Shown: positions 5,715 through 21,614, numbered from the stretch's first letter. The stretch: DNA of 64,000 nt from Archaeoglobales archaeon (GCA_030055525.1 JASFYJ010000002.1:1-64000), one strand, 5' to 3'. Numbers and translations are program-made. Notes: generated by a model from the letters alone, not told the origin.

Positions 5715-7211
5715 ATGATGGTCAAGCTCGATGGTGAAACGCTTGAAATCCCTGAAGGTGCAACTTTCGGTGATTTGCTTAAAATTCGCCAATTATCCAC
5801 GGATCATGTTTCAGCAATCGTAAGAGGAAAAATGGAGCTCGAAACTTTACCCGAAAAGTACCAGATATACACTACGAGAGGTAAGATCACTATAAGGGTC
5901 GAAAATCAAGAACTTTGGAAGTTGGTAATGGAGAAACTAATTGGCTTAGAAGTTGCTTGGAGAACCAAAAGAGCCTTAGCTTTCGGTCCTTTTAATTTAG
6001 ATCTGAAGAATTTTTTAGTCACTCAAACCTACGAGCCTGGACAGTTTTTAATCAGCTTCGCAGGAGGCAGCTCGGAAAGCGTTTATATCATAGCTACGAT
6101 AACAAAGTACTCCGCGAAGCATAACACCACAGATGGCGGCGTTGTTGCCAAAATCGTAGGTGGGATCAAAGTTCTCAGATCTCTTGAGATCGGGGATAAG
6201 TTTTTAAGGATAGAACCTGTTGTAGAAACAAGGTTTTTGGAAGGAAAGATTTTAAGAGCTGAATTGGAAGAGAAACTTAAAGATGGTGACGAGATATACA
6301 CGAAAATGGTATTAGAACTCGATTGCAATCTTTCAGAGGCTGCCGAATATGTTATGAGTGTTTTTGAAGAAAAAAATATAGTTGAGGAGGTTACAAACAC
6401 ATACGTTCGTATAAAAGGACTGAAGGGTTTAGAATTCAGAGATGAAAATGTAGAAAAGCGCGAAAGAGGTGTTGTGAGTATAAGAACGACAGGAAAAAAC
6501 AAGGGAGACGTTTATATCTACAGAAAAAGCCGCATGCCGAACAAAGACCATTTAATTGCTGGGCGCATCGTTCAGGGCATGGAGATCATGGAAGTTGTTA
6601 AAAAAGGAGACAGCTTAAGAGTGGAAACGATCCCTGCAAGAATAAATACAGTAGGATTAAAACAGTCCGAAGCTCAATCTCTCTTAGAAAAAATTGGAAT
6701 CAGACAAATAAGAGAAGGCGATAAAAGCGATGAGGCAGTAGTGGTTTCTCAGTATCCATTAAATACTGCTGAAATACTAGCAAAAAGAGAGGTAAAGACT
6801 GTGGGAGTAGAAAAATCTAAAATTGTCAGATTGAAACTTTACTACGATCTAGCACCAAGAACCACCGAGTACTTCAAATTGGTAGCAGGAATGGTAGGTA
6901 GAAGAGTTGGAAAACTTGAAGTTTACTTCAAAACTAACGATCTGATAATTTTCAGACCAAAATCATCTTATAAAGATCCTTTAATTCCAGAAAATACTCC
7001 TAAAGAGATTGTCAAAGCTGGTGAAATTGGTGTAACAAACATGTCAAGAAGACATGCTGGATTGATAGGTGTCCGATTTAGCGACAGCAAGGAATATGGT
7101 CCAACTGCTGAAAGATTTGAATCTACGAACATAATAGGCGTGGTTGTTGAAAATTTTGAAGCTTTAAAGGATGCCAAGGAAGGTAGTGAAGTTTACTTCA
7201 TGGAGGTGTAA
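5715..7211 (+). CDS. mmp3: Methanogenesis marker protein 3 (MCR activation complex component)
   Basis: A 498-residue protein matching methanogenesis marker 3 (UPF0288) in length and in its long alternating beta-rich build. The family is found in organisms with methyl-coenzyme M reductase. It was reported to copurify with McrC, Mmp7, Mmp17 and component A2 as the ATP-dependent complex that reduces nickel in F430. The C-terminal part (from about residue 370) has cyclophilin-like blocks such as GEIGVTNMSRRHAGLIGVRF. It is the first gene of an operon with mmp6-5, mmp15, mmp17 and mmp7. The start is one of two adjacent ATGs at 5715 and 5718. Confidence 0.88.
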   Translation: MMVKLDGETLEIPEGATFGDLLKIRQLSTDHVSAIVRGKMELETLPEKYQIYTTRGKITIRVENQELWKLVMEKLIGLEVAWRTKRALAFGPFNLDLKNFLVTQTYEPGQFLISFAGGSSESVYIIATITKYSAKHNTTDGGVVAKIVGGIKVLRSLEIGDKFLRIEPVVETRFLEGKILRAELEEKLKDGDEIYTKMVLELDCNLSEAAEYVMSVFEEKNIVEEVTNTYVRIKGLKGLEFRDENVEKRERGVVSIRTTGKNKGDVYIYRKSRMPNKDHLIAGRIVQGMEIMEVVKKGDSLRVETIPARINTVGLKQSEAQSLLEKIGIRQIREGDKSDEAVVVSQYPLNTAEILAKREVKTVGVEKSKIVRLKLYYDLAPRTTEYFKLVAGMVGRRVGKLEVYFKTNDLIIFRPKSSYKDPLIPENTPKEIVKAGEIGVTNMSRRHAGLIGVRFSDSKEYGPTAERFESTNIIGVVVENFEALKDAKEGSEVYFMEV

Positions 7212-7212
7212 G

Positions 7213-7998
7213 ATGAAGACGAGAATTTTCGTTATATCTCCCGATTCAGGAATCAATTCTGAGGAGTTGATTTTTAAAATTTTAGGCCATGGGTTCAATG
7301 GAACTGTTAAAGAAACCTGTTTTGGAGCTATGGTTGAAGGGGAGGAGAAGGAGGTGGAGAAGATTGTGGATTTCATAAGGAGAGAATATTACCACGAGGT
7401 TTTTACGAAGGATAGAGGATATCCGATAGGTGATAAGAGAATTTGTAGAGCTGAAAGGGGTGGAGGAGCAAGGTCGGGGCTTTATCAGATCGAGTACGAG
7501 GCTGGATTTTTGCCTTTTATCTCTCAGGCGCTAAGAGATTTTGAAATTTTTAAAGTTAAGAATCCCAAAAAGATAATTGTACACCCTATAAACAGTCTCA
7601 TACTTGCAGATCTTGTAGAAAGAGCAGGACATTATCCAGTTACTATGATGGAAAAAATTGGAAACCTTGTAAGAAACCCGGAGATAGACTCCCCTCCAAG
7701 GAACATTACTACGGAAGATGTAGTTAGGGGGTTAAAGTACGCTTCAGTTGAGATGCCTTCAGGGATAAGAGGGCGTTTAGGAGTTTGGGATTCTTTGATT
7801 GAACAAGCGGAGGCTGCTTTGATTGCGAATTATGATTATGCATTTGGTTGCGCAGGCTGCACGCACAACGACATATTAATATACTTGATAAAGGCAAGGA
7901 AAATCCCTTACCTTAGATTAAATCTGCCTCGGAATTATGAAGAAGGAAAAGAATTTGTCAAAAAGATTTTTGAATTTTTGAAGAATGTTGGTGATTGA
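7213..7998 (+). CDS. mmp6-mmp5: Fused methanogenesis marker protein 6 - marker protein 5
   Basis: A 261-residue protein that joins two families normally encoded separately. Residues 1 to about 115 look like Mmp6 (VKETCFGAMVEG, FTKDRGYPIGDKRICRA, then a GGGAR turn). Residues from about 120 look like Mmp5 (IIVHPINSLILADLVERAGH, SPPRNIT, SGIRGR, and the FGCAGCTHND cysteine pair). The combined length equals Mmp6 plus Mmp5. The ATG at 7213 follows a GGAGGT site that overlaps the mmp3 end; an earlier ATG at 7171 lacks such support. No stop or second ribosome site is visible at the junction, so one polypeptide is expected. Functions of both halves are unknown. Confidence 0.85.
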   Translation: MKTRIFVISPDSGINSEELIFKILGHGFNGTVKETCFGAMVEGEEKEVEKIVDFIRREYYHEVFTKDRGYPIGDKRICRAERGGGARSGLYQIEYEAGFLPFISQALRDFEIFKVKNPKKIIVHPINSLILADLVERAGHYPVTMMEKIGNLVRNPEIDSPPRNITTEDVVRGLKYASVEMPSGIRGRLGVWDSLIEQAEAALIANYDYAFGCAGCTHNDILIYLIKARKIPYLRLNLPRNYEEGKEFVKKIFEFLKNVGD

Positions 7999-7999
7999 A

Positions 8000-9256
8000 A
8001 TGGTGAGAGTTGCACTTCTAACGTGCGGAGCTGAATACAGCGGTGTTTACAACGAAATTCAGAAGGCTGCAAAGATGGTTGGTGCTGAGATAGTGATTCC
8101 GGAGGTTGATTTTGATGTTATAAGAGATGTTGAAGATGATTTTGGAATCAGTGTAAAAGGCGGAGATCTAAAACTGATGATGGCTAGAGCTAAATCTATA
8201 TCAGAAGGCTGGAGCGACGTAGATGCCGCATTCATAGCTACGTGCTTCAGATGCGCGGATGGAGCTTTGGTAAGAAACGCTGTAAGGAAATATCTTCAGG
8301 ATGCAAAAATACCCGTTGTGGCGTACTCATTTACAGAAAAAAGCAAGGCTGGAAACTTTTTGCTCAGAATGGAAGCTTTAGTAAATATAGTGGAAAGAAA
8401 GAACCTACTTGCAAGGACAAAACATTCTGGACTTACTGTCGGCTTAGATTCCGGTTCAACAACAACTAAGGCAGTGATAATGAGAGATAACGAGATAATT
8501 GGTGCAGCGTGGAGACATACTGTCGATATAATAGATACGGCCGAAAAGGTTTTGAATGAAGCGTTACAGATGGCCGGAGTTAAGCTCTCTGAAGTAGAAG
8601 CCTTAGGTACAACCGGTTATGGGAGATTTTTAATCGCAAAACATTTCAATGCTGACATAATTCAGGATGAAATTACGGTAGGAGCGAAAGGTGCTACTTT
8701 TTTGGCAGATACGCAGAAAGGGGATGCCACTATAATAGATATTGGAGGGATGGATAACAAAGCCATAACGGTCCATGACAGCATTCCAGACACATTCACC
8801 TTAGGCGGAATCTGCGCCGGATCTTCTGGAAGATTTTTAGAAACTACTGCAAGAAGGCTTGGAGTTGATATAAAAGAGTTCGGTGAGATGGCGGCTAGAG
8901 GGGATTATAGAAAGGTAATGATGAACTCTTACTGTATTGTATTCGGAATGCAGGATCTAACAACGGCCCTTGCTGCCGGTGCGAAGGCTGAGGATGTTGC
9001 AGCCGCTGCATGCAGGAGCGTAGTTGATCAAATTATGGAGCAGCAGCTTCAGGAGATCACGCTGAGACAGCCAATAATAGAAGTTGGTGGCACTTCATTA
9101 CTTAAAGGACTTGTAAAAGCTGTAAGAGAAGCTTTGGGAATGGATGTTATAGTTCCTAAGTACTCCCAATTTGCAGTAGCAACAGGAATGGCTTTTGTAG
9201 CTTCTGGAGTTAGAGAGGAGGAGGTTTATGAGGTTAGTAATAGAATCTCCAGATGA
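8000..9256 (+). CDS. mmp15: Methanogenesis marker protein 15, activase-type ATPase
   Basis: A 418-residue member of the BadF/BcrA activase family (ASKHA ATPases), like activators of 2-hydroxyacyl-CoA dehydratase. Such proteins couple ATP hydrolysis to low-potential electron transfer through a [4Fe-4S] cluster. The first 145 residues are a marker-15 specific domain with CFRCADG. The ATPase follows, with phosphate loops GLDSGSTTTKAV and DIGGMDNKA, and the cluster cysteine in GGICAGSSGRF. The ATG at 8000 gives the family N-terminus MVRVALLTCG; an upstream ATG at 7985 would overlap mmp6-5. It lies in the mmp operon, which suits a reductive activation role, but its exact partner is unknown. Confidence 0.88.
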   Translation: MVRVALLTCGAEYSGVYNEIQKAAKMVGAEIVIPEVDFDVIRDVEDDFGISVKGGDLKLMMARAKSISEGWSDVDAAFIATCFRCADGALVRNAVRKYLQDAKIPVVAYSFTEKSKAGNFLLRMEALVNIVERKNLLARTKHSGLTVGLDSGSTTTKAVIMRDNEIIGAAWRHTVDIIDTAEKVLNEALQMAGVKLSEVEALGTTGYGRFLIAKHFNADIIQDEITVGAKGATFLADTQKGDATIIDIGGMDNKAITVHDSIPDTFTLGGICAGSSGRFLETTARRLGVDIKEFGEMAARGDYRKVMMNSYCIVFGMQDLTTALAAGAKAEDVAAAACRSVVDQIMEQQLQEITLRQPIIEVGGTSLLKGLVKAVREALGMDVIVPKYSQFAVATGMAFVASGVREEEVYEVSNRISR

Positions 9257-9800
9257 AGAAGGAAAGGAAGCTTATTACAGAACTGTTTCAACAATTCTAT
9301 CTGAAAGTACTGTGAGAGGATCTATTAGAGAATTTTACATCTATGCTGATCCGAAAGAGCCGCTTGTGATATTAGCTATAACCTTCTCAAAATCTGGAGA
9401 AGTTTTAAAGTTCTCTGACGTTGTAACATTGAAAGCTGCTAAGGAAGGAGTTATAGCCGTTTGTGAGAACGACAAACTTATGCCAGAAGTTCTCAGAATT
9501 CTCTGGGAAAAAGTTGGGAGTGATAAAGTTGAGCAACTGAGCAGATATGAGGTTATGGTTAAAGAAAACCTAAGCGAAGAAATACTGAATGCCGTAGTTT
9601 ACGATCCATCAAAAGAACTGATGACTGGGCTTATAGATATAATTGTGAGGACTATTCCTGAAGGTTTCAGAATTCGAAAGTATATGCAAGTGGAAGGAAA
9701 GATAGTAATCGTAGCTTCTGAGGATCTAATAAAAGAGGAATGGATAAAAATGGCTGAAAAAATTTTGAGGGGAGATTATGTTCGTACCGCTGATTTTTAA
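9228..9800 (+). CDS. mmp17: Methanogenesis marker protein 17 (MCR activation complex component)
   Basis: A 190-residue protein matching marker 17 by length, by the N-terminal VIESPDEEGKEAYYR block and by its place between mmp15 and mmp7. Known work puts Mmp17 in the McrC-Mmp3-Mmp7-A2 complex that activates methyl-coenzyme M reductase. The ATG at 9228 overlaps the mmp15 end by 29 bases and is preceded by GAGGAGGT, a strong ribosome site, so the pair is translationally coupled. Confidence 0.83.
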   Translation: MRLVIESPDEEGKEAYYRTVSTILSESTVRGSIREFYIYADPKEPLVILAITFSKSGEVLKFSDVVTLKAAKEGVIAVCENDKLMPEVLRILWEKVGSDKVEQLSRYEVMVKENLSEEILNAVVYDPSKELMTGLIDIIVRTIPEGFRIRKYMQVEGKIVIVASEDLIKEEWIKMAEKILRGDYVRTADF

Positions 9801-10656
9801 CGGTGGAGTTTATCGTCATGAGGAACTGGAAAATTTGGTAGAAGATCTGGGTGGCTATGTAATCCTCAAGAACTTTGCACAGACTGAGGTTACAATGTTC
9901 ATCATAGTTCCTGAAGAGGATGTAGATAGGGTTAGAGAGATGGTAGAAGTTCTTAAAGGTGAGCTAAAAGAAGCTCCACTCGCTGGAAGTGAGATTGCTG
10001 TTGTTGTTCCGACGATATCCATACATCATCTACCTCATCCATCCTGCGATGTTGCTGAGTATCTACGCAGGAAGGGTGCAAAATCGAACATGGTTGGCTT
10101 ATCTAGGGGGGTTGGAAAAAGACTTGCAAGGCTTACGGGATTTGAGAAAGAGCTGATAAACGAACATGATGTTGCTGTATTTATGTTTGGTAACTTCAAG
10201 CATTGCATTCTTGAGAAATTGAAGATCATTAAAGATATCACCGTGCCAGTAGTTGTTACTGGGTATCCCAGGATCGAAGTTGAGGGAATGAGGTATGTAT
10301 CAAACTTTGGCAGGTTCGTGGGGAAGTTCAGTAGAGAGAGCGAAATAGAACTGCTAGAAAAGGTTGCAAAAGCGGTAGAGAAGTGTGTAGAGGAAAAAAA
10401 GAGGGAATTGGGAGAAATAGAAATACCCCCATACTACATCAAGGCCGAAATAGAGAGGCAGATACCTGAGGTCTCTGAAGCCCTATCTCCAGCACCGATA
10501 ACCGTGAAGCTGGATGGGGTTAGAGTAAAATTACCATACGAAAAGTATGGAGAGAAGATTAGAAAGGTAAAAATTCTTGATTCTAGGATAGAAGAGTTTT
10601 GCGACGTCTATCCCTCTGTGGTCGAGGGGCAAACGATTGTAAAGTTAGTAACTTAG
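9778..10656 (+). CDS. mmp7: Methanogenesis marker protein 7 (MCR activation complex component)
   Basis: A 292-residue protein matching marker 7 in length and in the block LPHPSCDVAEYLRRKGAK followed by GLSRGVGKR. Cysteines at SCDV, KHCI, KCVE and FCDV could hold a metal cluster. Mmp7 is part of the reported ATP-driven MCR activation complex containing nitrogenase-like iron-sulfur clusters. The start overlaps mmp17 by 23 bases after a GAGGGGAG site. It is the last gene of the mmp operon, and 180 bases later the mtr operon begins. Confidence 0.87.
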   Translation: MFVPLIFNGGVYRHEELENLVEDLGGYVILKNFAQTEVTMFIIVPEEDVDRVREMVEVLKGELKEAPLAGSEIAVVVPTISIHHLPHPSCDVAEYLRRKGAKSNMVGLSRGVGKRLARLTGFEKELINEHDVAVFMFGNFKHCILEKLKIIKDITVPVVVTGYPRIEVEGMRYVSNFGRFVGKFSRESEIELLEKVAKAVEKCVEEKKRELGEIEIPPYYIKAEIERQIPEVSEALSPAPITVKLDGVRVKLPYEKYGEKIRKVKILDSRIEEFCDVYPSVVEGQTIVKLVT

Positions 10657-10742
10657 TAAAATTTATTTTATTTTGTATCAACAAATATTTATTTGAGATC
10701 TGTAATTTAAGAAAATACAAGATAGGTTGCAAAAAAAGAAAA

Positions 10743-10754
10743 AACATAAATATG
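10743..10754 (+). promoter_or_regulatory. Probable promoter of the mtr operon
   Basis: The 180-base gap between mmp7 and mtrE is AT-rich. The best TATA-like element is ACATAAATAT near 10744, preceded by a purine-rich BRE-like stretch. It would start a transcript near 10775 with a leader of about 60 bases ending in the GAGAAGGTGG ribosome site before mtrE. A small CGAACTTCG symmetry at 10756-10764 lies at the expected start. Confidence 0.4.
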
Positions 10755-10835
10755 TCGAACTTCGGCTGAGTTTTGGACATTTAGTTAAGGTTGCTTGGAT
10801 AAGGGAATTGATTAACACTTGAGAAGGTGGTGGAA

Positions 10836-11723
10836 ATGGACATAAATACGGGTTTAGGGCTTGTAGCTCTGATGGGTGCAGCAGCTACGATTGCGGGGGC
10901 TGCAGAAGACCTTGAATCGGACATTGGCTCACAAAGCAATCCAAATTCTCAGGTACAACTCGCTCCACAGGTTGGAGTTTTGCATAGAATTTTCAACAAA
11001 GCTATTTCTGGAGAACCACCAGCTTACGCCTTCTATTCAAGTATCGCAGCAACCGTTGCTTGGATACTGATGAGCTTGAACTTCAACATCTTTGCCGCAT
11101 TCGCCATTGGTGCATTTGTAGCTTCGATATTCCATGGGATATACGCAAGTACTGCGCATATCGGAAGAATTGCAAGTGCAAGAAGATACGGCCAGCCGAT
11201 ATATCTTGATGTGATGCTCAACCATCTTCCGGGAATAATGTCACACGGATTCGTGGCTACCTTCTGTGTCCTTGTACTTTCTTATGTTCTGCATGCATAC
11301 TTCGAACATCCATTCCCGTTCGTAATGCTTGCCTTCATATGGGGTATAACGGTTGGAGCGATCGGTTCTTCAACTGGCGATGTTCACTACGGATCTGAAA
11401 GGGAGTTCCAGAACCAGCCTTTTGGGTGTGGATTGAATGCAGCATTTTCTGGAAAGATAGTTACAAAGGCTGAGGTTGGTACTAGAAGCAACATAGATAA
11501 CGCATGGTTCTGTGCAAAGTTTGGGGGTCCAGCGACAGGTATAACTTTTGGACTTATAGTCTTCCTTGATAACTGGAGATCTCTGCTGTTTACACCAGAG
11601 ATGTCGATCGTTGTTGGAGCTGTAATGATAATTCTGCTGGTAGTTGCAAACAGAGTACTCGAGCTCTGGGCTAGAAAGAATTATGGACCATATCCGGAAA
11701 AGTTAGCCTTGTTGGAGGGGTGA
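10836..11723 (+). CDS. mtrE: Tetrahydromethanopterin S-methyltransferase subunit E
   Basis: A 295-residue membrane subunit of the sodium-pumping Mtr complex, which moves a methyl group between methyl-H4MPT and coenzyme M. The N-terminus MDINTGLGLVALMGAAATIA followed by EDLESDIGSQSNPNSQ is diagnostic. Six or so hydrophobic helices follow. The ATG at 10836 has a GAAGGTGG site 4 bases upstream; in-frame GTGs at 10827 and 10830 are less likely. First gene of a complete mtrEDCBAFGH operon in standard order. Confidence 0.96.
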   Translation: MDINTGLGLVALMGAAATIAGAAEDLESDIGSQSNPNSQVQLAPQVGVLHRIFNKAISGEPPAYAFYSSIAATVAWILMSLNFNIFAAFAIGAFVASIFHGIYASTAHIGRIASARRYGQPIYLDVMLNHLPGIMSHGFVATFCVLVLSYVLHAYFEHPFPFVMLAFIWGITVGAIGSSTGDVHYGSEREFQNQPFGCGLNAAFSGKIVTKAEVGTRSNIDNAWFCAKFGGPATGITFGLIVFLDNWRSLLFTPEMSIVVGAVMIILLVVANRVLELWARKNYGPYPEKLALLEG

Positions 11724-12406
11724 TCAGATTGGATCCGATAACTGCGATCGTTCTGTTAATAATCGCTGGAATTTTGATAGTTATTGCCGTTCATCATATC
11801 CCAGTCGGCGGCGCTCCAGCTGCGATGGCTATGGCTACTGGCGTTGGGACTGGAACGGTTCAACTTGCAACCGGAGCCGGTTTGACGGGGCTTGTAAGTG
11901 CTGGCTACATGTACCATTTTGCAGGTGTTGATCCTTACATAGTCTTGCTCAGCGGAGGAATAGGTAGCACATTGATGATAGGAATAACGATGCTTATAGG
12001 CAACGTGATTTACATCTTTGGCGTTGGGGTTCCGCCTGTTTCTGCAAAGGTGAAATTTGATCCAATTACGAAGGATAGGCAGGATATATATGTGTCTCCC
12101 GGTACCGAAGGACACGGCATTCCGACGGTTTCTTTTGTTAGTGGTATAATTGGAGGATTTATAGGTGGAGTCGGTGGTTCGCTTACATACGTCGTTCTGA
12201 ACGAAGTTGGCATAAACCCAGCGATCTCAGCCTTCATAGCAATCGGATTCTTCATAGCAAATGCGGTTATTGCGGCTTACAACATAGCGGGGACCATTGA
12301 GGGTTTCCACGATCCAAAGTTCAAAAGATTGCCTAAAGCGATACTTTCGAGTCTTATAGTCTCAGGATTTATTGCAGCCGTTGTAATTGGAGGTGTATTT
12401 CTATGA
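11720..12406 (+). CDS. mtrD: Tetrahydromethanopterin S-methyltransferase subunit D
   Basis: A 228-residue integral membrane Mtr subunit, with the family block HHIPVGGAPAAMAMATGVGT near the N-terminus and glycine-rich helices to the C-terminus. With MtrC and MtrE it forms the membrane part thought to carry sodium ions. The GTG at 11720 overlaps the mtrE stop (GTGA) after a GGAGGGG site. A TTG at 11729 would give the shorter LDPITA start and cannot be excluded. Confidence 0.95.
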   Translation: MIRLDPITAIVLLIIAGILIVIAVHHIPVGGAPAAMAMATGVGTGTVQLATGAGLTGLVSAGYMYHFAGVDPYIVLLSGGIGSTLMIGITMLIGNVIYIFGVGVPPVSAKVKFDPITKDRQDIYVSPGTEGHGIPTVSFVSGIIGGFIGGVGGSLTYVVLNEVGINPAISAFIAIGFFIANAVIAAYNIAGTIEGFHDPKFKRLPKAILSSLIVSGFIAAVVIGGVFL

Positions 12407-13215
12407 CGGTTTCCTGTGCTGCTGGAAAAGAGGTTAAAGAGGAGAAGAAGATAAACAACAATCTAATTGCTGCTATAGGTGTAATAGTCTCATTTATTGC
12501 AATCTACATAGCTTCAATAAGCGTATTTTTAGCATTCCTCGGTGCAGCTGGGATACTTGCCGCAAACCTATGGGGAGCAAACGGTGTTAGAACCGTCGCA
12601 AAGTATGGTATAGGAACGGGAGTGCCTTCAGTAGGTATGCTTGCACTCGGTGGCGCTGTTGGTGCTGTTTTTGCAGGGCTATACATCGGAAAGATGCTTG
12701 GAATAGAAGTTGCAGCTCCAATACTGGCTTTCATCTTGTCTATGATCACAGGCCTGCTGATAGGTATATGTGCAAGGTATATACTGAAGATGAACATCCC
12801 TGTTATGGTAAGATGCATGACAGAGATCTGTGGCGCTGGAGCACTTTTATTCATGTCTCAATTTGTTACAATAACAGGTTCCTACGGGTATGCAGCACTC
12901 GAAAAACTCGCTGAAGTTGGTGTAGTTCTGTTTATATTCATAATCGGAGCTCTTGGAATGTTACATCCATACAACGCATGCCTTGGGGCCGATGAGAGGC
13001 ATGGAAGAACTCTAAAATTAGCTTTAGCTACAGGAAGCGCACAGATAATTCTCGCGGGCATAGTTTCGATATACTTCCTAGGTTCAGTAAGTATTTTAAC
13101 TCTGTTAATCGGCGCTGTTGCGTGGGTGGTTACATACAGAGATTTCGTGAAAACGTCCTTCAAAGAGGGGATTGTTGTAAGTACTGGACTGATACCGGAG
13201 GTTGAGAAGAAATGA
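12403..13215 (+). CDS. mtrC: Tetrahydromethanopterin S-methyltransferase subunit C
   Basis: A 270-residue integral membrane subunit of Mtr with about seven hydrophobic helices and the family feature GANGVRTVAKYGIGTGVPSV. The start overlaps the mtrD stop as ATGA, with GGAGGTG upstream. It partners MtrD and MtrE in the membrane. Confidence 0.95.
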   Translation: MTVSCAAGKEVKEEKKINNNLIAAIGVIVSFIAIYIASISVFLAFLGAAGILAANLWGANGVRTVAKYGIGTGVPSVGMLALGGAVGAVFAGLYIGKMLGIEVAAPILAFILSMITGLLIGICARYILKMNIPVMVRCMTEICGAGALLFMSQFVTITGSYGYAALEKLAEVGVVLFIFIIGALGMLHPYNACLGADERHGRTLKLALATGSAQIILAGIVSIYFLGSVSILTLLIGAVAWVVTYRDFVKTSFKEGIVVSTGLIPEVEKK

Positions 13216-13514
13216 CGTTCGCTAAGATATCCTCTGAACCTGGATTGGTTTTGGATGCTGTTAAGGGAATCGTTGGCGAAGAAAGAGATGATTTGATTCT
13301 CTATTCACTTTCGGAAATTGAAGAAAAAATCAGATTACTTGACGAAATAGCGGACGATTTGGTAAACTCTCTAGATCCCCTCAAAAACTTTAGATCCTCA
13401 TATCCTGGAAGAGAGAAGTCTATGTACTATGCAGGAATGACTACGGGTGTTTTTTACGGGCTTGTAGTAGGCTTGATTATTGCATTCCTTATCTCGCTTG
13501 CAATGGTGATATAA
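13212..13514 (+). CDS. mtrB: Tetrahydromethanopterin S-methyltransferase subunit B
   Basis: A 100-residue small Mtr subunit: a soluble helical N-terminal part, then a single C-terminal membrane helix at about residues 75-98 (TTGVFYGLVVGLIIAF). The start overlaps the mtrC stop as ATGA after GAGGTTGAG. Placement and length fit MtrB. Confidence 0.92.
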   Translation: MTFAKISSEPGLVLDAVKGIVGEERDDLILYSLSEIEEKIRLLDEIADDLVNSLDPLKNFRSSYPGREKSMYYAGMTTGVFYGLVVGLIIAFLISLAMVI

Positions 13515-13515
13515 T

Positions 13516-14244
13516 ATGCCGGAAAAAGTTGAACCAGCGGCTGGATGGCCAAAAATTAAAGGAGAGTACATGGTTGGCGATCCAAAAAGTTGCGTCGCTG
13601 TAGTTACTCTTGGAAGCCATCTTGATGAAAAAAAGCTCATTGAAGCTGGAGCTGCAATAGCTGGAATCTGTAAGACTGAAAACATTGGTATTGAGAAGGT
13701 TGTAGCTAACGTAATTGCGAATCCGAATATCAGATATCTAATACTCTGCGGAGCAGAAGTAACAGGGCATCTAACTGGGGACGCAATTATATGTCTTCAC
13801 AAGCATGGTATAAAGAACAACAGGATAGTAAACGCTAAAGGTGCAATTCCTTACATCGAGAATCTACCACTTTCAGCTATCGAACGCTTCCAGAAACAGG
13901 TTGAGATAGTAGATATAATGGGAGTGGAAGATCTAAACACAATAATTGCAAAAATAAAAGAGTGCATCTCAAAAGATCCAGGCGCTTATCCAGAACCACC
14001 GATGGTTGTGGAGATCAAAGAAGAAGGAGCTGAAGAGATAGAAGCTGGAGAAAGTTATCCGATGCCTGGAGAAATAGCTAATATAGAGTCTTGGGTTAGA
14101 GATTTAGAGCTGAGAGTTAAGGAAGCAGGTTTAATGAACAAGTATGCTGCAGGTGTTTATGCAGGAAGATTTCAGGGATTTTGGATGGGTTTCACTTTAG
14201 CCATGACTGTACTAGGAATTTTGATGTGGATGGTGGGATTATGA
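13516..14244 (+). CDS. mtrA: Tetrahydromethanopterin S-methyltransferase subunit A (corrinoid protein)
   Basis: A 242-residue corrinoid-carrying Mtr subunit. The cobamide-binding region contains GAEVTGHLTGDA, where His85 corresponds to the axial cobalt ligand known from methanogen MtrA. The C-terminus keeps a membrane anchor at about residues 218-240. Its cobalt accepts the methyl group from MtrH and passes it to coenzyme M while sodium is moved. It starts one base after the mtrB stop. The neighbouring cbiX and the cobalt/nickel transporter at 32-34 kb fit its cobamide need. Confidence 0.97.
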   Translation: MPEKVEPAAGWPKIKGEYMVGDPKSCVAVVTLGSHLDEKKLIEAGAAIAGICKTENIGIEKVVANVIANPNIRYLILCGAEVTGHLTGDAIICLHKHGIKNNRIVNAKGAIPYIENLPLSAIERFQKQVEIVDIMGVEDLNTIIAKIKECISKDPGAYPEPPMVVEIKEEGAEEIEAGESYPMPGEIANIESWVRDLELRVKEAGLMNKYAAGVYAGRFQGFWMGFTLAMTVLGILMWMVGL

Positions 14245-14441
14245 ATGGCTTTCCTAAAATTTTGAAACCCAAAACATCTAGGATTGGAGAGATTGTTAGT
14301 GAAGTCGAATACAGTGCGCAGTTGATTTCGAGAACTCATAAACTTGAAGCAGGCATAAACATGGCAGGTATTTATGGCTTCGTGATTGGGCTTCTATTTG
14401 CATTCGTTCTAATACTGGTTCCAATGCTGCTTGTGGGGTGA
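14241..14441 (+). CDS. mtrF: Tetrahydromethanopterin S-methyltransferase subunit F
   Basis: A 66-residue subunit with a C-terminal membrane helix (IYGFVIGLLFAFVLILVPML). The ATG at 14241 overlaps the mtrA stop as ATGA. An earlier in-frame ATG at 14181 lies inside mtrA and would add residues foreign to the family. Its soluble part resembles the C-terminal part of MtrA, a known feature of MtrF. Confidence 0.9.
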   Translation: MNGFPKILKPKTSRIGEIVSEVEYSAQLISRTHKLEAGINMAGIYGFVIGLLFAFVLILVPMLLVG

Positions 14442-14447
14442 TGACAG

Positions 14448-14666
14448 ATGGAGGGTAAGACTCCTCAGGCCTATGTTGACACTGTAGAATACGTAGAACT
14501 TGCAAAGAAGTTGCAGAAGATCGAAGAAAAAATTGAGTTCTTCCAAGCTGAGCTTGCGCAACAAACAGGAAAGAAAGTAGGTAGAGATATTGGAATACTT
14601 TATGGGCTTGTTTTTGGCCTTTTCTTGGTGTTGGTGTACCTCATAATAAAGATTTCGTGGGGGTGA
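14448..14666 (+). CDS. mtrG: Tetrahydromethanopterin S-methyltransferase subunit G
   Basis: A 72-residue subunit: helical, coiled-coil-prone N-terminus (ELAKKLQKIEEKIEFFQAEL) and one membrane helix at the C-terminus (GILYGLVFGLFLVLVYLIIK). It starts 6 bases after mtrF, and its length and order match MtrG. Confidence 0.92.
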   Translation: MEGKTPQAYVDTVEYVELAKKLQKIEEKIEFFQAELAQQTGKKVGRDIGILYGLVFGLFLVLVYLIIKISWG

Positions 14667-14670
14667 TGGA

Positions 14671-15606
14671 ATGTTTAAATACGAAAAAGAACAAAAGGTT
14701 TATGAATTCGGAAAGGTCAAAGTTGGCGGACAGCCTGGCGAATATCCACCAGCGTATGTTGGTACAATATTTTATAAAGGGCATAAGATAGTATCTGACG
14801 AAAGAACCGGTAAATTCGACAAAGAGAAGGCTGAACAGCTTTGGAAAACACAGGAGGAGTTTTCTGAGTTAACGGGAATACCCTGTATGCTTCAGATAGT
14901 TGCCGAACATGATGAAGCGATGGAGAAATACATAGAGTGGTTTACTGGAATTTCGGATGCTCCTTTCCTGATAGACTCTACAGATCCAAAAGTCAGAATC
15001 GCTGGAGCTAAGTATGTAACCGAAGTTGGTGTTCACGATAGAGCTATTTACAATTCGATAAATCCAAGTATAACCCAGCAAGAAATCGAAGCTTTAAAGA
15101 ATAGTAAACTTGAAGCCGCAATAGTTTTAGCGTTCAACCCTACAGACAATACTGTAAAAGGTAGGTTGGATATCCTTGAAAAAGGCGGAGCTGGACTAAC
15201 TAAGGGTTTGCTTCAGATCGCTGCTGAATGCGGGATCAAGAAGTATCTGATAGATGTTGCGGCAACACCGCTTGGCGCTGGAGCTGGTGCTACATTTAAG
15301 TCAGTAATGGCAGTTAAAGCCAAACTTGGCTTACCAGCTGGTGGCGCTCCGCATAACATTCCATCTGCATGGCCTTGGATCAAACCTTTGAAGAAAGAGA
15401 GAAAGGAAGTTTGGTACCCAGCAGATATAGGTTCAAATCTGGTAATGCAAATACTCGGCGCAGATTTTCTACTCTATGGTCCAATTGAAAACGCTCCAAT
15501 GGTGTTTCCAAGTGCGGCCATGGTAAGTATAATAGTCGCTGAAGCAGTTAACGAGCTCGGAATAAGCCCACAAGCAGACTGGCATCCAATAAAGAAACTT
15601 GTATAA
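14671..15606 (+). CDS. mtrH: Tetrahydromethanopterin S-methyltransferase subunit H
   Basis: A 311-residue soluble TIM-barrel methyltransferase subunit. It transfers the methyl group between methyl-tetrahydromethanopterin and the corrinoid of MtrA. Family features include the N-terminal FKYEKEQKVYEFGKVKVGGQ, DSTDPKVRIAG and INPSIT segments. It starts 4 bases after mtrG with GGGGGTGATGG upstream, and is the last mtr gene. The complete eight-subunit set means the sodium-coupled complex can be assembled. Confidence 0.97.
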   Translation: MFKYEKEQKVYEFGKVKVGGQPGEYPPAYVGTIFYKGHKIVSDERTGKFDKEKAEQLWKTQEEFSELTGIPCMLQIVAEHDEAMEKYIEWFTGISDAPFLIDSTDPKVRIAGAKYVTEVGVHDRAIYNSINPSITQQEIEALKNSKLEAAIVLAFNPTDNTVKGRLDILEKGGAGLTKGLLQIAAECGIKKYLIDVAATPLGAGAGATFKSVMAVKAKLGLPAGGAPHNIPSAWPWIKPLKKERKEVWYPADIGSNLVMQILGADFLLYGPIENAPMVFPSAAMVSIIVAEAVNELGISPQADWHPIKKLV

Positions 15607-15623
15607 ACCTGGGGGTGTAAAAA

Positions 15624-16025
15624 CTGAAGGAAGTAGCTGCATTATTGATAGGTCATGGCAGCAAGCTGGAAGAACAGAGGAAGATGGTGGAACAGATAGC
15701 TTTATCTATCAAAAGTAAAAATATTTTTGCAGATGTTTTTTATGCATTCATGAACGTAAACCGACCCAGCGTGCAGGAATCGATGTCTGAAATTGTGAAG
15801 AAAGGTTACAAAAAGATAGTTGCAATTCCAATTTTTCTTTCGGATGGCATACACACAACTGAAGATATTCCAAAAGTTCTTGGACTTCCAAAAGGTGTTA
15901 AGAAAGGTTTCGTAGATGTCGATGGCAAAAAAGTTGAAGTTTTTTATGCAAGAACCATAGGGTTCGATGAGAGGATAGTCGAGATACTCATAGAGAGAGG
16001 TAAAGAAGCGATTGATATTTCCTAA
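15624..16025 (+). CDS. cfbA: Sirohydrochlorin cobalto/nickelochelatase, small CbiX/CfbA type
   Basis: A chelatase of about 133 residues that inserts cobalt (cobamide) or nickel (coenzyme F430) into sirohydrochlorin. The two metal-binding histidines are His11 in LIGHGS and His77 in SDGIHTTEDIP. The start is unusual: the reading frame opens after a TAA at 15618, and its first usable codon is CTG at 15624, 6 bases after a GGGGGTG site. The only other start, TTG at 15645, would remove the first beta strand of the fold and has no ribosome site. It sits directly after mtrH. The small homodimeric form is usual in archaea. Confidence 0.88.
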   Translation: MKEVAALLIGHGSKLEEQRKMVEQIALSIKSKNIFADVFYAFMNVNRPSVQESMSEIVKKGYKKIVAIPIFLSDGIHTTEDIPKVLGLPKGVKKGFVDVDGKKVEVFYARTIGFDERIVEILIERGKEAIDIS

Positions 16026-16076
16026 ATTTTTTTATACTCTTGTTGTCGTTTTTGCAAAACAGAGGAGGTGGTACTT

Positions 16077-17369
16077 GTGGGAGATATTCCAAAATCTGAT
16101 TGGAAGGTGCAGAGGTATCTTTATACAAGAGATATCTCAAGTGCACCGCTGATAACGTTACTCCTAAAGTATGTAGACGAGATCTATCAGCCAAGAAACG
16201 AAGAAGAAGTGATGGAAATTCTGAAAATGGCCAAACAAGAGGGTGCAACAGTTATACCAAGAGGCGCAGGAACCTCTGGCTACGGAGGGGTTTTGCCTGT
16301 AAAGGATATAGCCCTGTTTAGATTCTCAAGCAGAAAAACGATAATGATCGATACAACAAGGATGGACAGTTTTGAAATTAATGAGGATGAGCAAATAGTA
16401 GAATGCTCCCCTGGAGCTGTTTGGTGGGATATAGAAAAGAAGCTGAACAAGAAGGGACTTACCCTTAGAATTTATCCAACAAGCGCTCCATCATCTACTG
16501 TCGCAGGTTGGATAGCTCAAAACGGTACCGGTGTTGGTAGCTTGAAGTATGGTGGAATTGCCGAGAACGTTACGAAGATAAGGGTTGCTGACTTCAATGG
16601 TGTTAAAGAGGTTGAAGGTAAGGATCTGAAGTACTACGTTGGAATGTGTGGAACAACTGGTATAATCACAAAAGCTTGGGTTAAAGTCAAAGAAGTTGAA
16701 GATATGCACTACTATGCTTTCCATCTCCCACCACACAAAGCCGGAAAGCTTGTTTATGAAGGAGAACACTATGCAGCGTTGTACTTAGATGAAGGTTACG
16801 TAAAACTGAAGAATCAATCTTTCGGAACGAATTTACCCGAAAAAGATACACTGATGATCGCTACAACAGAGAAGATGAGCGAAGGTGATGAGGAGCTTGG
16901 AGAAGAGATATGGGAAACAAGATTTTACCCAATGAGAGTTAGAAAACTTGGTCCAGGTCTTGTGGCTGCTGAAAACGTTTTACCGGTAGACTCAATTCCA
17001 GCTTATTTGAATGCTTTGCATAGAATGGTCAAACAACCAAACGGAAGCGAAATTTGGTATGTAAAGGGCAAGAAGGGCGCTGTATTAACATTCATACCGT
17101 CCGATGAAAGGAAATTCTTAAATTACGCTTTGACGTGGAGACAGAGCCTTAGAGCTTTAAGGACGGCAAAAAAGATGAGAGGTGTACCGTATTCTTTAGG
17201 GCTCTATCTCAGCTGTGAATCTAAACTGCTTTTAAAGCAGGATTATGAAGAGATAAGGGAATTCAAGAAAAAGATCGATCCTGAAGACCTTTTAAACCCT
17301 GGAAAAGTATTCCCGAAGGGTGTTTTTCCGCTTATAATCGGAATTGGACAGAAGGTGGTGATATTATGA
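16077..17369 (+). CDS. GlcD-type FAD-linked oxidase
   Basis: A flavoprotein of about 430 residues of the FAD-binding-4/glycolate-lactate oxidase type. The FAD PP-loop region is IPRGAGTSGYGG, with later GGSLKYGG-like and GMCGTTGIITKAW blocks; the C-terminus has IDPEDLLNPGKVFP, as in GlcD. It probably oxidises a 2-hydroxy acid or related substrate, which is not identifiable. GTG at 16077 follows GAGGAGGTGG at good spacing; an in-frame GTG at 16068 lies within that site. It overlaps the next gene as ATGA, so electrons likely pass to that HdrD-like protein. A TATA-like element lies near 16029-16038. Confidence 0.85.
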   Translation: MGDIPKSDWKVQRYLYTRDISSAPLITLLLKYVDEIYQPRNEEEVMEILKMAKQEGATVIPRGAGTSGYGGVLPVKDIALFRFSSRKTIMIDTTRMDSFEINEDEQIVECSPGAVWWDIEKKLNKKGLTLRIYPTSAPSSTVAGWIAQNGTGVGSLKYGGIAENVTKIRVADFNGVKEVEGKDLKYYVGMCGTTGIITKAWVKVKEVEDMHYYAFHLPPHKAGKLVYEGEHYAALYLDEGYVKLKNQSFGTNLPEKDTLMIATTEKMSEGDEELGEEIWETRFYPMRVRKLGPGLVAAENVLPVDSIPAYLNALHRMVKQPNGSEIWYVKGKKGAVLTFIPSDERKFLNYALTWRQSLRALRTAKKMRGVPYSLGLYLSCESKLLLKQDYEEIREFKKKIDPEDLLNPGKVFPKGVFPLIIGIGQKVVIL

Positions 17370-18532
17370 GGGTTGAGAAGGAAATAAACGACTTAGTTAC
17401 AGCTTGCGCTCAATGTTTCTATTGCAGAGTCTGTCCAGCATTTCAGACGATAAAGTGGGAGAGTGTATCTCCAAGGGGTAGAGTGTACACGATAAAAGGA
17501 TTGATAAGGAGGAAAATAGAGCTGGAACCTCAGCTGGTTGAAGATTTCTATAAATGCACAACCTGTGGTGCATGCGAAGAGCAATGTCAAACTACCTTGC
17601 CTTTAGTTGATATCTGGGAGCATGTAAGAGCTGAATTTGTCAAGGAAAAGGTCGCTCCACTTCCAGCACATAAAAAGATACGTGAACTGGCAGAAAAATC
17701 TGGAAATCCCTATGGAGAACCTCAAGAGAAAAAGATAGAGTGGATAAAGGGATACAAGTACAACGAAAGTGGCGAGCTTTTATACTTCGCTGGATGTACA
17801 GCAAGCTTTAGAGCAGTAGAACTGGCGAAAAATACTGTAGAACTTTTCAACAAAGCTGGCGTTGAATTTACGTTTGCTGGAAAAGACGAATATTGTTGTG
17901 GATCCCCCTTCTTAAGGACTGGTCAGAGAGATATAGCTTATGAGTTCTTCAAGAAGAACTACAACGAATGGAAAAAGAGGGGCGTAAAGACGATAGTCTC
18001 ATCGTGTGCTGGATGTTACAGAACGATCCTAATAGATTATCCAAAGATTGCAAAAGAACTCGGCTTGGACTGGGATTTCAAAGTTATGCATACATCTCAA
18101 CTTGTTAACAAGCTTATAAAAGAAGGTAAGCTTACACCGAAGAAGTTCGAAGCTAAGGTAACGTATCATGATCCGTGCCACCTCGGTAGACACACCAAAG
18201 TCTACGAAGAGCCTAGAGAAGTAATAAAGGCCATCGGGGCCGAACTTATAGAGATGGACAGAAATAGAGGAGAATCATTCTGTTGTGGTTCAGGAGGAGG
18301 TGTAAAGTCCCAATTCAAAGATCTTGCTGGAGCTATAGGTAAAAACAGAATTCAGGAAGCCAAAGAGACTGGAGCTGAGTACCTTATATCTTGCTGCCCA
18401 TTCTGCAAGTATCACCTTAAGCAGATGGCTGAAGAGTCGGGGGTAAATATAAAAGTTGCTGACCTAGTTGAGATAGTTAACAACCTTGTCGGTTCAAGCG
18501 ATATTAAGGCGGAAGATATAAAGTGCGGTTAA
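17366..18532 (+). CDS. HdrD/GlcF-like iron-sulfur oxidoreductase
   Basis: A 388-residue protein with an N-terminal pair of [4Fe-4S] motifs (CAQCFYCRVCP near residue 12 and CTTCGACEEQC near 60), then two CCG domains. The first CCG domain has AGCTAS, YCCGSP and SCAGC; the second has DPCHLG, FCCGSGGG and SCCPFC. HdrD, which reduces the CoM-CoB heterodisulfide, and GlcF share this build. It is translationally coupled to the GlcD-like flavoprotein and close to mtr. That suggests a membrane-free couple linking a substrate oxidation to CoM/CoB thiols, but no hdrE cytochrome is nearby. The electron partner is inferred. Confidence 0.83.
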   Translation: MRVEKEINDLVTACAQCFYCRVCPAFQTIKWESVSPRGRVYTIKGLIRRKIELEPQLVEDFYKCTTCGACEEQCQTTLPLVDIWEHVRAEFVKEKVAPLPAHKKIRELAEKSGNPYGEPQEKKIEWIKGYKYNESGELLYFAGCTASFRAVELAKNTVELFNKAGVEFTFAGKDEYCCGSPFLRTGQRDIAYEFFKKNYNEWKKRGVKTIVSSCAGCYRTILIDYPKIAKELGLDWDFKVMHTSQLVNKLIKEGKLTPKKFEAKVTYHDPCHLGRHTKVYEEPREVIKAIGAELIEMDRNRGESFCCGSGGGVKSQFKDLAGAIGKNRIQEAKETGAEYLISCCPFCKYHLKQMAEESGVNIKVADLVEIVNNLVGSSDIKAEDIKCG

Positions 18533-18563
18533 ATTTATTTTTTTAGACAGCGTAGGTGAGTTC

Positions 18564-19298
18564 ATGGAAATTGAAAATGTTAGAAGGAAAGCGAGGGAGC
18601 TTAGAGAAGTTTTGAGTCTGAAGACTTTTCCTGTTGGCGTAAAATTGCTTAAAGAACCTTCGAAACTTGATGCGAAGAGACTGAAAGGTTATAGATACTG
18701 TCAAGCTCTGATGAGGGCTCGACATGGAGAACACGTTTTAATTGGTAGAGAAGATCTCAGCTGTGCTGCAGCTTCTGCCGTTTTTGGATTCAAACCAATG
18801 CCCGAGAGTTTTAAGACAGGAGAACAGTCTGTGAATATTGGTATAGCCAAGGATAAGGAAGTAGGAGCTAAAATTTACGAGGAAGTACTTTCTTTTGCTC
18901 CAGGTGAGATATCAGAGATATACCTCTTTCCTCTCGAAACAGCTATCCTTGAGCCAGATGTCGTGATAGTTGAAGATAAGGTCGAAAGACTGATGTGGAT
19001 AGTTCTAGCATATATAAATGCGATCGGTGGAGAGAGAGTTCAGCCAAACACAGCAGTTATGCGTGCTACATGTTTAGATTGCACCGCAATTCCATTCAAG
19101 ACACAAAAGATCAACATAAGTTTGGGTTGCTATGGATGCAGAAGTGCAACAGATATCGAAGATGATGAGGCTCTAGTTGGGTTTCCATTCAAGTACTTTG
19201 AAAGCGTGGTTGATTACGTGAAGTTGTTCAGCGAAAAAGCCATACCTAATGCTAGATCAAAGAAGGTGTTTAAAGCTTTGCAGGAGAAAGGTGTTTAA
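18564..19298 (+). CDS. DUF169 family protein
   Basis: A 244-residue member of the DUF169 family, function unknown. Conserved-looking cysteines are in RYCQAL (near 52), LSCAAAS, TCLDCTA and LGCYGCR, enough to hold an iron-sulfur cluster. It starts after GGTGAG and its stop is immediately followed by the nifB ATG, with nifB followed immediately by mmp14. That tight operon next to mtr and mmp genes suggests a part in cofactor or cluster assembly for methane metabolism; this is inference. Confidence 0.75.
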   Translation: MEIENVRRKARELREVLSLKTFPVGVKLLKEPSKLDAKRLKGYRYCQALMRARHGEHVLIGREDLSCAAASAVFGFKPMPESFKTGEQSVNIGIAKDKEVGAKIYEEVLSFAPGEISEIYLFPLETAILEPDVVIVEDKVERLMWIVLAYINAIGGERVQPNTAVMRATCLDCTAIPFKTQKINISLGCYGCRSATDIEDDEALVGFPFKYFESVVDYVKLFSEKAIPNARSKKVFKALQEKGV

Positions 19299-20165
19299 AT
19301 GAAAGAGGAAACATGGAAAGATGTTGGTAGCAAGTTTGCCCATCTAACCTCGGCGCATCCATGCTACAGCCACGAGGCACATTTTAAATATGCCAGAATT
19401 CACCTACCAGTTGCACCGAAGTGCAACATCCAATGTGGATACTGCACGAGAAAGATAGATAAATGCGAGTATCGTCCCGGTGTTGCGGCATGCATTTTAA
19501 ACGCTGAAGATGCGTTGAAAAGAGTGGAAGAAGCACGAAAAAAATATCCGCTAAAGGTTGTTGGAATCGCTGGCCCAGGGGAAGTTTTAGCTAATGAGGA
19601 ATCTTTCAAAACTTTGAAACTCGTAAATGAAAAGTATCCAGAGCTTATATTGTGCATCGCAACCAACGGTCTCTTGCTTGCAGATTATATAGAGCTACTG
19701 AAAAAATTAAATGTCAAAACTGTAACAGTTACAGTTAACGCCATAGACCCAGAAGTTGGAGCGAAAATTTACGAATGGATAGATTACAATGGAAAAACAC
19801 TTAAGGGTTTTGAAGGGGCGAAATTGTTGATAGAAAAGCAGCTCGAAGGTATAAAAGCAGCTTCAGATGCAGGAATGGCTGTTAAAGTTAATACAGTTCT
19901 TGTACCGGAGATAAACGATGGAGAGGTCGAAAAAATTGCTGTAGAGGCGAAAAGGAGGGGAGCTTTTATCATGAACGTAATTCCGCTAATTCCACTTTAC
20001 AGCTTCAAAAACTGGAGAAAACCAACTTGTGAGGAGCTTAATAAAGCTAGAGAAGTTGCTGCGAAACATTTAAGGGTTTTCAAACTCTGCAAACAATGCA
20101 GAGCCGATGCAGTTGGAATCCCAGGAAAAGAACTTGCAACAGATAGTACATACTTCCACGGCTAA
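19299..20165 (+). CDS. nifB: NifB, FeMo-cofactor core (L-cluster) synthase
   Basis: A 288-residue radical SAM protein with NifB hallmarks: HPCYS at residues 20-24, ARIHLPVAPKCNIQCGYC with cluster cysteines 42, 46 and 49, RKIDKCEYRPG, and the C-terminal KLCKQCRADAVG. It lacks the C-terminal NifX-like domain, as is usual in methanogens. NifB builds the carbide-containing [8Fe-9S-C] cluster. No nifHDKEN is in the window. Since the MCR activation complex (Mmp3, Mmp7, Mmp17) carries L-cluster-like centres, this NifB may serve that complex. It begins on the base after the DUF169 stop codon. Confidence 0.92.
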   Translation: MKEETWKDVGSKFAHLTSAHPCYSHEAHFKYARIHLPVAPKCNIQCGYCTRKIDKCEYRPGVAACILNAEDALKRVEEARKKYPLKVVGIAGPGEVLANEESFKTLKLVNEKYPELILCIATNGLLLADYIELLKKLNVKTVTVTVNAIDPEVGAKIYEWIDYNGKTLKGFEGAKLLIEKQLEGIKAASDAGMAVKVNTVLVPEINDGEVEKIAVEAKRRGAFIMNVIPLIPLYSFKNWRKPTCEELNKAREVAAKHLRVFKLCKQCRADAVGIPGKELATDSTYFHG

Positions 20166-21614
20166 ATGATACGAAAAATATTTTCTCCAAAACCAAGAAT
20201 TGCTGAGAGTAAATACATATCGGCAAATTTAAAATCACATAGTGCTTTTGTTGAAAGTTCAGAGGAGAACGTTTACTATCTTGTAGCTTCAGTTGAGGTT
20301 GGAAATACAACTACCAAGTGCATTCTTACAGCAACGAACCTTAACACTGGTCGCACGTACCTTGTAAACAAGGTTGTAAAACTTACAAGAGATGTTAGAA
20401 AACCGAAAGCTGGGGAAGAAATTTTTGGTTCAACTATTTTTGGTGTTAAACTCACAAGGCAATCTATTGCTGAGCTTGTAAGAGATACCATAATTGAATC
20501 TTGCACAAAGGCAAACATCAATGTTTCAGATTTGGATTTTGTTGTGCGTTCTACAGGAGTTGTCGCTCATTTCACAACTCCCGACGAGATAGGAGTATTT
20601 ATTCAGGCTTTAGCCGATGGTTGTTTATTAGCAGGTGTTCCACCATCTAAAATGGTTCCTGCAATATCAAAAGACAGTTTACCAGAGAAAATCAAAAAGT
20701 ACAGTTTACTAGACAAGATCTACTTTGATGGTGCTGTAGCAGGGATTTTACCACCAAGAGGATCAACGGGAGCTGAAATAGTAGCAAACGAAATGGAGGG
20801 CGAACTTTCAACTGCTGGAATTAAAGAGGGAGCAAAGTGGACAGACGTCGATTTTAGAAATCCATGCATATCCATGGATTTTGGAACAACCTTCAAAGGC
20901 AGAATTGTCAACGATGATCTCCCGTATGCAAAAACTATTGGAAATTTTTGCGGGCTTGGAGGGGCTATTGCCGATGCAATAGTGAAAGGATTCTTGAAAA
21001 AAGAGAACGCGGCCACTATTGATATTGCGATGAAGAATTCCTACAGAATTGGAGAGGAGGCATACCAGTTAGCTGAAGAGATTTGCAAGTACATAAGAGT
21101 TGAGAGGGTACACAGCAACTGTAAAAAGTTTGGTATGATACCTGTAAACGCAAAAGCTGCAGAGGAGGCAGGAATTGTGCTTATAGGTTGTGATGTGGGT
21201 ACTAACGGAGATAAGATTCAAAAGTTGGAAAAAATTGGAGGAAATATAGAGAAGGAGAGTTTACTATTTTCGACCATAGACGTTACAATGAGCAAGGTTT
21301 TTAGAAGAGTTGTCGAGTTGATCGTCGAGGAAGGGATATTTAGCGAGAATATGGCAATTGGAGTAACAGGAAGGGCCGGTATAACGGGAGAAAAGCCTCA
21401 GCTTTTTTTGAAAGAGTTGATGGAGCTTGGGTTATATAAAAAGCCGGAAAAAAATATAGTTTTCGTCGACGATGGATTGGCAAGAGGTGCAGCGGTTATG
21501 GCAAGGTGTATGAATGCTCTTGGAAACCCAAAAAACCCCATAGGTGGTTTAAGATATGGAAAGTGTGTCCTAAAAAAGAGAGTTGAATATCAAAGCGCTA
21601 GGATGTCGTTCTGA
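20166..21614 (+). CDS. mmp14: Methanogenesis marker protein 14
   Basis: A 482-residue protein assigned to methanogenesis marker 14. It has an actin/Hsp70-like ATPase phosphate loop, VEVGNTTTKC at about residues 42-51, a second acidic-glycine loop SMDFGTTFKGR, and the DDGLARGAAVMARCM segment near the C-terminus. It begins on the base after the nifB stop, so DUF169, nifB and mmp14 are one transcript. The family function is unknown; the ATPase fold resembles that of reductive activators. Alternative assignment as a DUF1464-like sugar-kinase-fold protein is less likely. Confidence 0.82.
   Translation: MIRKIFSPKPRIAESKYISANLKSHSAFVESSEENVYYLVASVEVGNTTTKCILTATNLNTGRTYLVNKVVKLTRDVRKPKAGEEIFGSTIFGVKLTRQSIAELVRDTIIESCTKANINVSDLDFVVRSTGVVAHFTTPDEIGVFIQALADGCLLAGVPPSKMVPAISKDSLPEKIKKYSLLDKIYFDGAVAGILPPRGSTGAEIVANEMEGELSTAGIKEGAKWTDVDFRNPCISMDFGTTFKGRIVNDDLPYAKTIGNFCGLGGAIADAIVKGFLKKENAATIDIAMKNSYRIGEEAYQLAEEICKYIRVERVHSNCKKFGMIPVNAKAAEEAGIVLIGCDVGTNGDKIQKLEKIGGNIEKESLLFSTIDVTMSKVFRRVVELIVEEGIFSENMAIGVTGRAGITGEKPQLFLKELMELGLYKKPEKNIVFVDDGLARGAAVMARCMNALGNPKNPIGGLRYGKCVLKKRVEYQSARMSF

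Follow-up and report, generated by a model that had tools for sequence, protein, structure and literature searches.

NifB was first regarded as a nitrogenase gene and was later tied to the activation of methyl-coenzyme M reductase (MCR). Uses of nifB beyond nitrogen fixation have been considered (PMC8809328), and NifB has already been proposed as the cluster source for MCR activation in work on the Methanococcus maripaludis activation complex, which comprises McrC, Mmp3, Mmp7, Mmp17, and A2, and for which the ligands of the McrC and Mmp7 clusters have been reported (PMC12176620, Nature 2025). In M. marburgensis, nifB comes after an mmp cluster (PMC12176620). Mmp14 was linked to Mtr in 2014 by gene neighborhood and by its absence from Methanomassiliicoccales (PMC4153887), and a 2025 structural study of Mtr mentions only 'as-yet uncharacterised' RACo enzymes (PMC12774963).

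We compared these systems to a gene block at positions 5,715 to 21,614 of a 64,000-nt stretch of DNA (the window) from an Archaeoglobales archaeon. The source genome (1.56 Mb, 98.5% complete) has the MCR-bearing Archaeoglobi metagenome-assembled genomes (MAGs) WYZ-LMO2, JZ-3_D_bin_138, and SKYB18 as its nearest named relatives. The block reads mmp3, mmp6-mmp5 (fused), mmp15, mmp17, mmp7, mtrEDCBAF, mtrH, cfbA, a FAD_binding_4/CCG pair, DUF169, nifB, and mmp14. As in M. maripaludis, the reported cluster ligands are conserved; here mmp3, mmp7, mmp17, and nifB share one block, which also includes mtr, cfbA, DUF169, and mmp14, and the host is an MCR-bearing member of the Archaeoglobi.

We favor, with moderate confidence, a reading in which the block serves this lineage as an assembly-and-activation island of methane metabolism, with NifB acting for McrC and Mmp7, Mmp14 acting for Mtr, and DUF169 as a helper. 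NifB would make an [8Fe-9S-C]-type cluster that may then be loaded onto McrC and Mmp7, which together with Mmp3, Mmp17, and A2 would reduce the F430 of MCR. Mmp15 and Mmp5/6 probably assist this activation, and CfbA would produce the nickel precursor of F430. Mmp14 may be an ATPase with an ASKHA (acetate and sugar kinase/Hsp70/actin) fold, which re-reduces the MtrA cobamide after accidental oxidation, much like RACo/RamA, and DUF169 probably aids NifB as a lineage-specific iron-sulfur (Fe-S) helper. The reading builds on gene content and order, co-variation, ligand conservation, and a MtrA-MtrH-Mmp14 linkage in genomes without MCR, all of which we observed.

NifB, DUF169, and MCR activation

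The initial annotation, made from the window, proposed that this NifB serves MCR activation and found no nifHDKEN genes nearby. Indeed, the block holds no nif gene other than nifB, and this absence extends to the whole source genome, where CfbD (TIGR03282, above cut-off at 387 bits) is the sole Oxidored_nitro (PF00148) protein and the strongly matching NifH-family protein resembles CfbC. No nifDK(EN), and no nifH beyond CfbC/CfbD, was found, and canonical mcrA and mcrB are present on a different contig from the block. There is thus no nitrogenase client for NifB in this genome. That NifB serves a nitrogenase or nitrogenase-like enzyme encoded elsewhere in the genome would fit the situation in other Archaeoglobi genera, in which the nifB genes examined (40-50% identity) belong to a full nif operon in g13 and adjoin two nitrogenase-like genes in g12 or a NifH-family gene in g3, but with CfbD, which lacks the 8Fe cluster (PMC12176620), as the only Oxidored_nitro match, we regard it as highly improbable. 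A hidden nitrogenase is largely ruled out by the genome-wide search, bar the 1.5% incompleteness. G021 carries a further Archaeoglobi nifB gene.

The protein itself is a radical S-adenosylmethionine enzyme (PF04055, CX3CX2C motif) with NifB as its best family match. Its TIGR01290 score of 296 bits lies below the cut-off of 344; the match spans only positions 7-283 of the 441 in the profile, because the C-terminal part is absent. It matches the 7jmb/7bi7 structures with 320 bits, and alignments revealed all K-cluster ligands listed for NifB (PMC9692996), namely the N-terminal Cys, the His, the Cys before the TNG motif, and the C-terminal CxxC. The source genome also encodes Mmp3, Mmp7, Mmp17, and, outside the block, McrC. 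McrC retains the reported cluster ligands C12, H49, C55, and H118, and Mmp7, which matches structure chain 8s7v_H at 1.6e-66, retains H84, C90, and C143.

We surveyed 59 genomes of the class Archaeoglobi. Within the source genus, all five genomes with mcrA also carry Mmp7/McrC and nifB (80% identity or more), and nifB is absent from G049 (99% complete), G054, G047, and G048, all of which lack mcrA and Mmp7. A sixth nifB carrier of the genus, G050, is only 73% complete. Because some of these genomes are identical to MAGs named above as relatives, the nifB block is counted in six genomes in total. This genus-level co-variation of nifB with mcrA, the conserved ligands, and the missing nitrogenase together support a role of NifB in MCR activation, an idea that agrees with PMC12176620, which has priority.

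DUF169, nifB, and mmp14 abut, with 0 nt separating each stop codon from the next start. Archaeoglobi that lack nifB commonly carry the DUF169 family, in several copies, and it was found neither in G063 (complete, 1,067,436 bp, read whole) nor in the 946 kb read of G079 (about 1.0 Mb), NifB carriers that belong to different families. DUF169 is therefore no general NifB partner. Only in the source lineage is a partnership plausible: the nifB-linked copies fall into a single supported clade of our tree, have six conserved cysteines rather than the four found in almost all paralogues, and lie directly upstream of nifB in 6/6 genomes. We take DUF169 to be a probable Fe-S helper of NifB that is specific to this lineage. 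A second DUF169 paralogue (G000:C11:105115-105849) lies about 23 kb from mcrA on a contig with mcrA and cfb genes, and a viral_contigs scan returned no DUF169.

Alternatively, methane-metabolism genes may merely be grouped here, with nifB, DUF169, and mmp14 abutting through chance operon packing and sharing no common pathway. Such packing would account for an adjacency limited to one genus-level lineage, and for the tens of kilobases or more that separate nifB from mmp7 in single-contig genomes of other families for which both positions are listed. It accounts poorly for the joint absence of nifB and the block from genus members without mcrA, and for a distinct DUF169 clade, with two extra cysteines (Cys-173 and Cys-192), that nifB has kept beside it throughout. 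The gene order is kept in the mcrA-carrying relatives (split across contigs in one genome, partial in G050), and the order of the block is thus not due to chance. We consider the packing explanation unlikely.

Mmp14 and the corrinoid protein MtrA

The initial annotation grouped Mmp14 with DUF169 as a partner in making or inserting the MCR cluster. The DUF169-nifB-mmp14 arrangement on which this rested is kept in the mcrA-carrying relatives of the genus, but among 77 mmp14 loci outside the Archaeoglobi (flanks up to 10 kb) none has nifB nearby; mtr genes are nearby in three. In G063 and G079, mtrA, mtrH, mmp14, and a gene for a core methionine synthase are grouped (L168 5216-10295; L257 11676-17042), with one extra gene in G079. 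No mcr, mmp3/7/15/17, mtrBCDE, or NifDKEN was detected in G063 or in the portion of G079 that was read. As the grouping occurs in genomes without MCR, Mmp14 belongs with MtrA/MtrH, and an insertion role is not borne out. It is more likely that Mmp14 is an ATP-driven reductive activator of the MtrA cobamide than a part of the MCR cluster-insertion machinery, as suggested by its genomic context and predicted fold.

MtrA has been predicted to feed a core methionine synthase of the MesA type, which is reported only in methanogens (PMC7857596). Consistent with this prediction, in G063 and G079 the core methionine synthase gene comes after mmp14 beside mtrA-mtrH, and, unlike the hosts of MesA, these genomes lack MCR. 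The group may possibly represent a corrinoid route from methyl-pterin to methionine. In G063, it is followed by a thymidylate synthase gene.

An AlphaFold model of Mmp14 (predicted local distance difference test score (pLDDT) 76) has an ASKHA-type fold. A Foldseek search with this model gave 51 matches at E <= 0.001; most of the matches listed are ASKHA proteins, and RACo (3zyy) ranks second and fourth (4.3e-6 and 1.8e-5). Mmp14 thus resembles RACo/RamA in its modeled fold and in the linkage of its gene to a corrinoid protein and a methyltransferase, seen as mtrA-mtrH in G063 and G079 and as mtr in the window. It differs from them at the sequence level: up to E 10 there is no Pfam match besides DUF2114 (e.g. 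no ferredoxin domain), a profile search of PDB sequences gave no RACo match, and a PDB sequence search with Mmp14 and DUF169 gave no meaningful matches. With neither sequence homology to RACo/RamA nor an Fe-S domain found, we do not class Mmp14 as a member of that family, but only as a protein predicted to work alike, and this RACo-like role draws mainly on genomic context. Four cysteines (Cys-234, Cys-262, Cys-448, and Cys-467) and no histidine are conserved in Mmp14. For mmp14 of L039 and L073, the in-frame stop seen inside the tblastn range is just the natural stop codon of the gene.

Distribution of NifB and its candidate clients

We compared the occurrence of NifB, Mmp14, and Mmp7 in 392 genomes of the phylum, where the counts are of related genomes and not of independent events. 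NifB and Mmp7 occur together in 239 genomes, Mmp7 only in 5, NifB only in 12, and neither in 136. NifB tracks Mmp14 (phi 0.935) at least as well as Mmp7 (phi 0.908). It is present in 6/6 genomes with Mmp14 but without Mmp7, versus 6/142 genomes without both (Fisher p 7e-8, relatives not being independent), and among Mmp7 carriers it is missing from 3/7 without Mmp14, versus 2/237 with Mmp14. We put down its absence from G099, G286, and G310 (93-95% complete) to incompleteness, because the genus (G099, G310) or family (G286) has members with NifB.

These numbers also hint at a model in which NifB has two clients, McrC/Mmp7 and Mmp14 (or another Mtr-linked protein), such that MtrA activation too uses a nitrogenase-type cluster. 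The abutting nifB and mmp14 genes in the source lineage, the conserved Mmp14 cysteines, and the NifB proteins of G063 and G079, which keep their motifs where MCR, the activation complex, and NifDKEN went undetected, point in the same direction. However, the cysteines are only candidate ligands; Mmp14 conserves no histidine; the adjacency is found only in Archaeoglobi; NifB in G063 and G079 may have other clients; and NifB occurs without Mmp14 in G075, G078, G102, and G305. We view a second client of this kind as doubtful. We are similarly reserved about its most specific version, in which Mmp14 would be an ATP-driven MtrA corrinoid activator bearing or using a cluster made by NifB, and in which some archaea without MCR or nitrogenase would keep NifB only for this purpose, linked to methionine synthesis. 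In either form, use of a NifB product by Mmp14 on behalf of Mtr is possible.

Several observations weigh against the assignment of NifB to McrC/Mmp7, of Mmp14 to Mtr, and of DUF169 as a helper, which we nevertheless prefer. The intact NifB proteins of G063 and G079 (L199 13150-13944; L265 11393-12229) have no known client. Conversely, the Archaeoglobi family f2 (G055 and G056, 99% and 95% complete) has two divergent mcrA per genome and the genes mmp15, mmp5, mmp6, mmp7, mmp17, and mmp3 (L133 1952-9484 and L135), and its Mmp7, along with McrC in G055, keeps the cluster ligands, yet there is no NifB; Mmp14 is likewise missing from both genomes. A NifB overlooked through a strict cut-off was rejected, as a repeat TIGR01290 search gave at most 26 bits. 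Either NifB is thus not strictly needed for such a complex, or f2 relies on a different cluster or a different supply of it. For Mmp14, the Foldseek template modeling scores (TM-scores) are low (about 0.3) and sugar kinases score alike, and a profile comparison with Mmp15 was not significant, with only the phosphate-1 motif aligned. The AlphaFold model of DUF169, from a 4-row alignment, had a pLDDT of 38 and was discarded. In L265, the nifB gene adjoins genes that by appearance (unscanned) resemble sufC and a Suf-type protein.

Organization of the block and meaning for NifB in archaea

Open reading frames (ORFs) and profile families agree with the layout first described for the window, in which mmp3, mmp15, mmp17, and mmp7 are followed by mtr and the gapless DUF169-nifB-mmp14 run, and add the fused mmp6-mmp5, cfbA, mtrF, and the FAD_binding_4/CCG pair. 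The fused ORF scores above the cut-off for TIGR03271 and just under it for TIGR03272; mmp6 and mmp5 are fused in the source genus and separate genes in family f2 (L133). The GlcD-like flavoprotein and the TfrB/HdrD-like Fe-S protein (16068-18532) lie between cfbA and DUF169 in relatives too, and the pair is a possible candidate electron donor.

Table 1. Genes of the block, with positions in the window and supporting matches
Gene	Product or description	Position	Strand	Evidence
mmp3	MCR activation complex subunit	5715..7211	+	TIGR03268 478 bits, above cut-off
mmp6-mmp5	single fused ORF	7171..7998	+	PF09875 at residues 20-121, PF09885 at 134-272
mmp15	BadF/BcrA-type ASKHA activase-like ATPase	7985..9256	+	TIGR03286 639 bits, TIGR00241 301 bits, both above cut-off
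mmp17	MCR activation complex subunit	9228..9800	+	TIGR03291 133 bits, above cut-off
mmp7	cluster-carrying MCR activation complex subunit	9778..10656	+	TIGR03274 352 bits
mtrE, mtrD, mtrC, mtrB, mtrA		10827..14244	+	PF04206, PF04207, PF04211, PF05440, PF04208
mtrF		14181..14441	+	PF09472 72 bits; NF009776 above cut-off
mtrH		14671..15606	+	PF02007 432 bits
cfbA	sirohydrochlorin nickelochelatase of F430 synthesis	15645..16025	+	NF033198 F430_CfbA 120.8 bits, cut-off 120
FAD_binding_4	GlcD-like oxidoreductase	16068..17369	+	PF01565
CCG	4Fe-4S protein (TfrB/HdrD-like)	17366..18532	+	PF02754 x2; best NCBIfam TfrB, below cut-off
DUF169	nifB-linked six-cysteine clade	18564..19298	+	PF02596 188 bits; tree, cysteine comparison
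nifB	radical SAM, short archaeal form without NifX domain	19299..20165	+	TIGR01290 best family, 296 bits
mmp14	DUF2114, predicted ASKHA-fold ATPase	20166..21614	+	PF09887 678 bits, TIGR03285 637 bits

New in this analysis are two families in which NifB occurs apart from both nitrogenase and MCR, and an Mmp7-containing family, f2, without NifB. Natural gene losses thus set the candidate NifB clients apart, since genomes with Mmp14 and MtrA-MtrH but without MCR or nitrogenase keep NifB and the Mmp7 of f2 occurs without it, and this separation makes the purpose of NifB in archaea directly testable. The reductive activator of Mtr that PMC12774963 left uncharacterized may be Mmp14, which we put forward as a candidate. 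If the second-client reading, which we regard as doubtful, holds true, NifB would have a second archaeal client that is neither nitrogenase nor MCR and, conversely, f2 with its divergent Mcr would keep a cluster-binding complex without NifB.

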